A stretch of 64,000 nucleotides of DNA from an uncultured SAR86 cluster bacterium (GTDB taxonomy: Bacteria > Pseudomonadota > Gammaproteobacteria > Magnimaribacterales > D2472). The notes below the pieces were generated by a model, which saw only the letters and a list, made by a program, of their open reading frames with translations, searched no databases and was not told the origin of the DNA. The position numbers and the translations under genes are program-made. Below are positions 19,088-38,561 of this stretch, one piece after another; positions within the stretch are counted from its first letter, which is position 1, and every line of letters begins with the position of its first letter. Location: the NCBI GenBank assembly GCA_902627055.1, contig CACOHS010000002.1:68380-132379 (forward strand), in the 5' to 3' direction.

Positions 19088-19449
19088 GATCCAACAAAAG
19101 CTTCAATTTTTCCAAGCAATCTTTTGAAATCAACTGGCTTTGTATCAAAATCATCTGCGCCACATTCTAAAGCTTTTTGTTTGTCTGATTCCAATGCATG
19201 AGCTGTTAAAGCAATAATTGGTATAGAGTTAATAGATTCATCAGCCTTAGCTTGAATGGTTGCTTCCCAACCGTCTAAAACTGGCAATCCCATATCCATC
19301 AAAACAAGATCAGGAGATTCACTTCTCATCATATCTAAACCAGCTTGACCATCAACAGCCATTATAATTTCGTAGCCACGTCGTGATAACCTCCTTGATA
19401 ACATATCTCGGTTCATCTCATTGTCTTCAATATATAGTAATTTTGCCAT
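19084..19449 (-). CDS. Single-domain response regulator (REC)
   Basis: LLYIEDNEMNRDMLSRRL...LVLMDMGLPVLDGWEA...ALTAHAL...TKPVDF. Confidence 0.95.
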   Translation of the reverse strand: MAKLLYIEDNEMNRDMLSRRLSRRGYEIIMAVDGQAGLDMMRSESPDLVLMDMGLPVLDGWEATIQAKADESINSIPIIALTAHALESDKQKALECGADDFDTKPVDFKRLLGKIEAFVGS

Positions 19450-37114: not shown

Positions 37115-37978
37115 TTAAGAGTTTTTTCGTTTTTTAACTGAATTAGCATAATACATACCCATCATAACAAATATAAAACCACCAAATATTATCAATGTGA
37201 TACTTTCATTCAAAAAAATAGCGCCCCAGATAATACTAAATACTGGAAGCAAATAAGTTAGAGTTGATGTTTTTACAGCACCAATTCTATCAATAAGCCT
37301 TACATATCCAAGATATCCTATTCCAGTTGACACAACGGCAAGCCATAACAATGCTAAAAAAGAATTTAAATTAGGTATTTGATTAGGCAGATTAAAAACT
37401 GCTAAAGGCAGCATTAATAATCCACCAAAAAGCATCGACCAACCTATTAGCACTATTTTATTTGAATTGTAATGATACTTTTGAAGGTAATTTCCATTAA
37501 ATGCATAACAAAGTGACCCAATCAATGCACAAATACTAGCCAAAATTGTGCTTGAACCATTGGCAGGATTGACTAGGATTATCACGCCAATAAAACCTAG
37601 ACAGAGGCCCAAAATTTGTTTTGACGATATGGATTCATTCAACCAAAAATAAGCAATAACAGTGGTTAAAAAAGCAGTTGTTCCATTGAGAATACCAAGC
37701 ATATTAGAAGTAGCGCCAAGTGAGGCAAATGCAAAAAGCGTAAATGGTAATGCGTTGCTTATGACTGCAATAATAAGAATACTTGGAAAATATGATTTGA
37801 ATTTAAGCCTATTTTGCCTCTGAAGTAGCAAGGGCATAAATACAAGACCAGCTATTAAAAGTCTTAATGTGACCAAAAGAATTGGGCCAAAGTCTACTGC
37901 AGAAATTTTTATAAACATGAAGGCGCTGCCCCATATTGCTGCGAGTGAAATTAATAAAAACCAATCTTTAGATTCCAT
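37115..37978 (-). CDS. EamA-family DMT transporter
   Basis: Two repeated EamA halves; AAIWGSAFMFIKIS, LLPVFSIIWGAIFLNES. Confidence 0.93.
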   Translation of the reverse strand: MESKDWFLLISLAAIWGSAFMFIKISAVDFGPILLVTLRLLIAGLVFMPLLLQRQNRLKFKSYFPSILIIAVISNALPFTLFAFASLGATSNMLGILNGTTAFLTTVIAYFWLNESISSKQILGLCLGFIGVIILVNPANGSSTILASICALIGSLCYAFNGNYLQKYHYNSNKIVLIGWSMLFGGLLMLPLAVFNLPNQIPNLNSFLALLWLAVVSTGIGYLGYVRLIDRIGAVKTSTLTYLLPVFSIIWGAIFLNESITLIIFGGFIFVMMGMYYANSVKKRKNS

Positions 37979-38060
37979 ATAGTAAATGGATGAAATAAGA
38001 ATTGATGAATTTTAAACCAATAGAAAAGATTTAGGGCATTAATTTAATTTTTTTAGTCTG

Positions 38061-38091
38061 AAAAAAAAGAAGCCTCTATAAAGAGGCTTCT
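38061..38091 (-). terminator. Intrinsic terminator
   Basis: Perfect 10-bp stem AGAAGCCTCT/AGAGGCTTCT, 4-nt loop; minus strand continues TTTTTTTT. Confidence 0.92.
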
Positions 38092-38192
38092 AACTATCAG
38101 AGTTAGATAAGTCTGATAGGCGAATTCGGTGATTCACCTCTTGTCAAAAGGCGAGCCCTCCGTTTTCTAATTTAATATAAATACTAATAAGA

Positions 38193-38225
38193 TCACCTCC
38201 TGTGCAAGGGTATTAAAAAAGACAT
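38193..38225 (-). CDS. Putative 10-aa leader peptide MSFLIPLHRR
   Basis: ATG preceded by AAGGGGAUUUUUUU; stop codon lies inside AGGAGGUGAUC. Confidence 0.35.
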   Translation of the reverse strand: MSFLIPLHRR

Positions 38226-38327
38226 AAAAAAATCCCCTTAGTAATTTATTTATGCGACATCTATTAAAAATTATATAGAGAAAACTCTAGAATTAAAGAC
38301 CGAAATTATCAAAAGAATTGAAACTTT

Positions 38328-38561
38328 TTAATGCAATAGTTCTGGCTGATAATATTCCTTACTTTCCATCGAATTAAGATTAGAAAAATGATCGTCGTTT
38401 GAGTCTTCTGTCATATTAATATTAAGGTATTCGAGTGCCTGTTGAAGATCTGCACCGAAATATTTGAATGCAATAGTTTTTAATCCGGCAGTTTTATCGA
38501 CAAAAGCTTCGTATTCATTAAATATTGGATCCAAAGCGTTTAAATGTAAAATGTTATTCAT
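38328..38561 (-). CDS. Hypothetical 77-aa protein, predicted LexA/SOS-controlled
   Basis: AGGAA 6 nt upstream of ATG; near-consensus LexA box and promoter directly upstream. Confidence 0.7.
   Translation of the reverse strand: MNNILHLNALDPIFNEYEAFVDKTAGLKTIAFKYFGADLQQALEYLNINMTEDSNDDHFSNLNSMESKEYYQPELLH

Follow-up and report, generated by a model that had tools for sequence, protein, structure and literature searches.

Comparison across relatives indicates that the minus strand of the window (the whole 64,000-nucleotide stretch of DNA analysed) carries a structured RNA gene of ∼200 nt that is probably transcribed independently and whose transcript ends are predicted. The RNA gene, its structure, the frame of a short ORF within it and the homologous start and stop codons of that ORF are established by this comparison. 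We propose a stand-alone ribosome-responsive RNA in which passage of a ribosome over the ∼14-codon ORF, and not the peptide made, is the functional event, a reading that we consider as apt to be right as wrong.

A conserved RNA gene with its own predicted transcription signals

The gene is laid out as a -10 box, a 5′ hairpin and pseudoknot, an extended Shine-Dalgarno (SD) sequence, a 14-codon ORF, a closing helix (P0) and a terminator. Its extent and transcription signals are:

38060..38262, minus strand: stand-alone structured RNA gene, the conserved unit from -10 box to terminator (ends predicted)
38270..38275, minus strand: putative -10 box TATAAT, found by sequence inspection (TATATAAT kept in most loci of family f1, the window's family)
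38068..38091, minus strand: intrinsic terminator followed by a U run (terminator scan, 10 pairs)

A blastn search with 261 bases around the element matched 32 of 60 relatives, reaching the level of the order. The alignment of relatives showed, in the 5′ half, the -10 box TATATAAT, a 5′ GUC, a variable hairpin, AAGGGG and ACCCUU, and in the 3′ half GGAGGUG[A/G]UC, AUUAGUAU, CCUU[U/C]UGACA, the 3′ hairpins and the terminator. Of 116 order genomes, 90 gave a single match each to a covariance model (R1), with the RNA present in every one of the four families and in 20 of the 21 genera. Among the 40 order genomes with at least 90% completeness, 35 carried it, in single copy. Genomes of this order are small (0.9–1.8 Mb). 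In Rfam 15, no family scored above its gathering threshold for the window element, its order relatives or the distant homologs described below; permissive E-values yielded weak matches only, all under gathering scores, and we discarded them as assignments. The literature on SAR86 or marine small RNAs yielded no RNA of matching kind. Judged by these comparisons the RNA family is real, conserved and, having no Rfam match, new as a family.

An extended Shine-Dalgarno sequence precedes a short conserved ORF

The translation signals of the RNA are:

38191..38201, minus strand: extended SD AGGAGGUGAUC (GGAGGUG[A/G]U[C/U] in every aligned member)
38144..38188, minus strand: mini-ORF ISIYIKLENGGLAF, AUU start, 14 codons, UGA stop (60 distinct homologous mini-ORFs)

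The initial annotation of this DNA had drawn attention to an 11-nt SD with no canonical start codon after it, and this was borne out: AGGAGGUGAUC is followed by UUAUUAGUAUUU, with no AUG, GUG or UUG. Taken alone, the exact 11-nt match is only moderately unlikely by chance. If at most one mismatch is tolerated, the 64-kb window contains two copies of the 11-mer (0.54 expected), and AGGAGG by itself is not enriched (22 occurrences, 18 expected). The SD is nevertheless more than a chance match, because GGAGGUG[A/G]U[C/U] is kept across the order and beyond. Its A-to-G variant still pairs, through G-U, with the 16S 3′ end in its canonical sequence, from which the host's own may differ. Strong selection on the SD is thus supported. 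The window has another near-perfect extended SD, AGGAGGUUAUC, at 19385-19395, also on the minus strand.

The AUU at 38188-38186, 7 nt after AGGAGG, had been named as the only nearby start candidate; it is so, and distant homologs have AUG at the aligned position. AUU is thus very probably the start codon of the mini-ORF. Among the 60 distinct mini-ORFs, 56 have 14 codons and four have 13; starts are AUU (46), AUC (2) or AUG (12), and stops UGA (55), UAG (4) or UAA (1). Frame 0 contains no internal stop, against 43/60 mini-ORFs with stops in frame +1 and 42/60 in frame +2. Extraction of the mini-ORFs demanded an open frame, but among the true homologs retrieved, this filter removed only those of family f103 with 11 codons and a single one with an N base, so the open frame is not a selection effect. 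Differences in length are whole codons (14, 13, 11), and the mini-ORFs of two near-identical loci (L102 and L107) differ by an indel of exactly one codon. In two related genomes of family f103 (loci L094 and L095), the mini-ORF has 11 codons and UUA replaces the stop codon in the P0 strand.

Divergence across the three codon positions was flat (0.32/0.35/0.30), and changes in the mini-ORF comprised 52 synonymous and 214 nonsynonymous ones. The peptide is therefore not obviously what is kept, and in this short alignment it looks as though what is conserved is that the ORF is translated, and not which peptide results. Residues recurring outside the order (MSN..C...GG.C) indicate that the peptide could matter. 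Although a single mutation away, an AUG start was found in none of the 48 distinct ORFs of the order, where selection seems to maintain a start other than AUG.

The ORF lies between a pseudoknot and a helix containing its stop codon

Comparison and folding of the relatives gave the following elements, together with one ORF that we rejected:

38142..38259, minus strand: helix P0, UGUC (38259-38256) with GACA (38145-38142), the 3′ strand including the stop codon
38222..38255, minus strand: hairpin P1, 38255-38243 with 38234-38222, the AUG of ORF1 in its 3′ arm
38206..38239, minus strand: pseudoknot, P1 loop AAGGG (38239-38235) with CCCUU (38210-38206)
38145..38202, minus strand: helix P2, CAGGAGG (38202-38196) with CCUUUUG (38151-38145), sequestering the SD (RNAalifold consensus, G-U to G-C changes)
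38096..38139, minus strand: 3′ hairpins AGGUGAAU/AUUCGCCU and UAUCAGA/UCUGAUA (from folds; sequence varies between families)
38193..38225, minus strand: ORF1, MSFLIPLHRR, rejected as a functional ORF (start not conserved)

P0 was paired in 91.8% of cells, against at most 51% in slid controls, and four of its five pairs changed on both sides; its covariation was 0.517, compared with 0.247 in shuffles and no more than 0.14 when slid. In the 13 distinct f1 sequences that align without shift, P1 was paired in 99% of cells, with 7/11 positions compensatory. The window's genus alone gave 82% pairing and four compensatory positions, and P1 appears in folds of all families. The pseudoknot joins the P1 loop to the segment 5′ of the SD and reads AAGGG/CCCUU, GAGGG/CCCUC, CAGGG/CCCUG, CAGAGAG/UUCUCUG or GGGC/GCCC, depending on lineage.

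In P2, RNAalifold paired GGAGG with CCUUYU, and G-U pairs were retained rather than improved. The SD sequence therefore seems constrained by another partner, and the alignment suggests that this is most simply the 16S 3′ end. P2 keeps this position neither in f4 nor in distant homologs; in these, inspection showed that other stretches of the ORF can pair with the SD. Families f2 and f3 (L027-L031, L067-L081) have an additional 3′ hairpin, the loop of which, AGUUGAGAUACU, is conserved, and a likewise conserved UUCCG[A/G]CU, both absent in f1 and f4; this loop or UUCCG[A/G]CU could be a target-pairing site.

Two structural claims made earlier from the window by itself did not survive comparison. 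The 10-codon ORF1 exists as a string, but while most of the genus starts it with AUG, L015 has GUG and L017 has ACG, and other families lack the start or have it in a different frame; its AUG forms an arm of P1. In L017 the change to ACG is compensated in the P1 partner (CAU to CGU), showing that helix P1, and not ORF1, is conserved there. Similarly, the AUCACC proposed to pair with GGUGAU of the SD is present at 38128-38133, but the pairing is disrupted in close relatives (GUGAAACUC in L009, CUAAAUUUC in L019). The GGUGAAUCACC hairpin was not conserved either.

Homologs outside the order start with AUG

A search of the class identified a homolog (G408, locus L066) that shares P0, P1, the pseudoknot and AGGAGGUGAUCAC with the window's RNA but has an AUG start: MSNDSMCAASGATC. 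Further AUG-start mini-ORFs outside the order were MSNRCIIGAPGGTC, MSHRCIIGFSGGAC, MSNECINGASGGTC and MSNGCIEVLTG, each followed by a stop codon. When 84,980 genomes were scanned for a sequence pattern, 16 matches were returned, 13 of which are homologs. They include Pontibacterium granulatum (MSNLLVEHTPGVTC), Motiliproteus (MSERLIERTSGVVC), a Cellvibrionales MAG (MSEPQVRRTPEVAC) and MAGs labelled Desulfobulbaceae, Lentisphaerae, Rhodothermia, Armatimonadetes and Chlorobiota, labels that may be wrong. The RNAs of the Armatimonadetes- and Chlorobiota-labelled MAGs are nearly identical and lie upstream of the same gene, which by inspection of its translation is dimethyladenosine transferase-like (RsmA/KsgA). 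A Gammaproteobacteria MAG (JAADGF010000038.1) has the same mini-ORF as a relative from the class (G484).

Mini-ORFs outside the order have 11-14 codons, an AUG start and a UGA, UAG or UAA stop, with the architecture kept. The AUG stands at the exact position of the order's AUU, and the P0 partner strand co-varies with the change of stop codon. A search of Pseudomonadota with a further model (R3) gave no match outside the order in 328 genomes; the RNA is either sporadic there or too diverged for this model. The Pontibacterium copy found no match in phages, plasmids or E. coli, and no virus contig contained either of two exact patterns tried. Within one RNA architecture, the start codon is thus fixed as AUU in this order where relatives elsewhere have AUG, an unusually clear natural case of such a contrast, which can be used to test the purpose of weak start codons behind extended SDs. 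The RNA is open to experiment through its homologs in cultured Pontibacterium and Motiliproteus.

The RNA is not generally tied to a downstream gene

The gene next to the RNA in the window, outside the RNA itself, encodes a transporter:

37115..37978, minus strand: EamA (DMT) transporter gene (Pfam EamA, 2e-38)

EamA is the co-directional neighbor of the RNA in families f1 and f4 only. The next gene is convergent in most f2 members, all f3 members and several distant homologs, and distant homologs otherwise have unrelated or distant neighbors. With convergent genes in most of f2 and all of f3, the RNA is not generally a leader: across the order, it does not lie consistently upstream of a co-directional gene that it might regulate. 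The initial annotation had proposed translation-coupled attenuation; as a common role this is not supported, given the promoter-like box and terminator of the RNA and the often convergent next gene. In f1 and f4 only, attenuation of EamA by the RNA is possible. The EamA start codon is ∼4-20 nt from the terminator T-run in L022, L023, L070-L072, L082 and L086. This short gap, seen in several f1 genera and f4, leaves little space for a separate promoter, and control of EamA by terminator read-through is possible there.

A proposed ribosome-responsive mechanism and its relation to known systems

AUU is a start codon discriminated against by IF3. In the mechanism that we propose, the near-perfect SD would recruit 30S subunits to the ∼14-codon ORF, where the AUU (rarely AUC) start used in the order would make initiation slow, IF3-limited and dependent on the state of ribosomes and factors. 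The short ORF would be translated at a low rate set by its start codon. With no ribosome present, the SD would be paired in P2 and the domain closed by P0, with the stop codon in its 3′ strand, and by the P1 pseudoknot. A ribosome reaching the stop codon would have to open P2 and P0, and its passage would switch or protect the RNA, whose output may be base pairing through its 3′ part or ribosome binding itself. We infer AUU use, ribosome-driven switching and a regulatory role of the RNA. The earlier idea that the ribosome is the sensed event thus stands in part: ribosome occupancy is probably part of how the RNA functions, whereas attenuation is not the general function, because many homologs have no co-directional gene. 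As an extension, the family, which occurs in several phyla and universally in the order, might use its ideal SD and a poor AUU start retained by selection to sense or buffer free 30S subunits or IF3, as a translation-side counterpart of 6S RNA, though we regard this as a long shot.

An AUU or AUA start behind an extended SD gives low, regulated initiation in infC (which encodes IF3) and in Staphylococcus cvfC1 and ccpN, with ∼10% of the output of AUG in poor medium (PMC13009471). Like these genes, the RNA has a strong extended SD before a conserved non-AUG start. They are full genes, whereas here a ∼14-codon ORF sits in a structured RNA and has AUG in distant homologs.

The RNA resembles other known systems in part. 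Spot 42/SpfP, SgrS/SgrT and PhrS are dual-function small RNAs with short ORFs, and share with it a short ORF on a small transcript, which here is predicted to be independent. For this RNA a promoter-like box, a terminator and a conserved frame were found, and translation of the ORF is predicted from sequence. Here, however, the order has no Hfq (Pfam Hfq in 0/41 order genomes), which does not fit an Hfq-dependent small RNA; there is no Rfam match, and the ORF is flanked by a pseudoknot on one side and, on the other, by a helix containing its stop codon. Its presence in single copy across an order of genome-streamlined bacteria without Hfq suggests that the RNA is likely important. TnaC, trp and ermC are of the leader-peptide attenuator type, and have in common with it a short ORF, a strong SD and a ribosome that probably alters RNA folding. 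In contrast to them, the RNA has no tie to a downstream gene, its stop may be UGA, UAA or UAG, and its peptide is not conserved as an arrest peptide. tmRNA and 6S RNA are likewise chromosomal structured RNAs, tmRNA also having pseudoknots and a short ORF, but the RNA has its own SD and no tRNA-like domain. Both coexist with it separately: a canonical tmRNA was found above cut-off in 40/41 order genomes, and the covariance model placed the genome's own 6S RNA elsewhere (C1:215265).

Alternative explanations

The RNA could instead be the mRNA for a functional 14-aa peptide, with the folds only setting the amount made. Conserved frame, start and stop, whole-codon indels and recurrent residues (in the order, Gly at codons 8, 11 and 12; beyond it, MSN...GG(T/A)C) speak for such a peptide. 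Yet neither third-position nor synonymous changes are in excess, the C-terminus drifts between families (Cys to Ser, Phe, Ala or Ile), and no adjacent modifying or exporting gene is consistent among loci; we consider the peptide reading unlikely, while giving it some real weight. Much as 6S RNA holds RNA polymerase, the ideal SD and poor start codon might hold 30S subunits as a non-productive decoy. The extended SD is indeed among the most conserved stretches, and the order's ORFs lack AUG; a decoy, however, would have no need of an open frame with a conserved stop, distant homologs do have AUG, and P2 can pair the SD, which leaves this explanation doubtful.

Genome context bears on the two other candidates. 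For the translation-coupled attenuator of the initial annotation, the position of EamA after the terminator in f1 and f4, with a gap of a few nt in several genera, is set against ∼80 nt between the terminator and EamA in the window, and against the convergent, unrelated or distant neighbors elsewhere; we give it only a slim chance. The GGA motifs of the RNA (AGGGGA, AGGAGG, CGGAGG) would suit a small RNA sponge of CsrA. CsrA was found in 17/41 order genomes, all in f2 and f3, and is absent from every searched f1 and f4 genome, although these keep the RNA, making a sponge barely credible. The families lacking CsrA are the same two in which the RNA lies beside EamA.

Other features of the locus

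Three further readings of the ORF region were discarded. A leader or pseudogene related to bS21, prompted by SIYIK and the strong SD, was dismissed as rpsU is intact elsewhere (C13:22430), without a strong SD. A +1 frameshift of the RF2 type at UUU UGA C was rejected since the frame beyond the stop is not conserved. A longer frame running from upstream through the SD (FYYYP..GGGPISIY in L022, L025 and L026) differs in length among relatives and was therefore judged non-coding. Directly upstream of the RNA, a 77-aa ORF (38328-38561, minus strand) gave neither a Pfam nor an NCBIfam match; it is kept in family f1, with the pattern MNN..HLN..DPIF.EYEAFVDK.AGLKTIAFKYFGAD.
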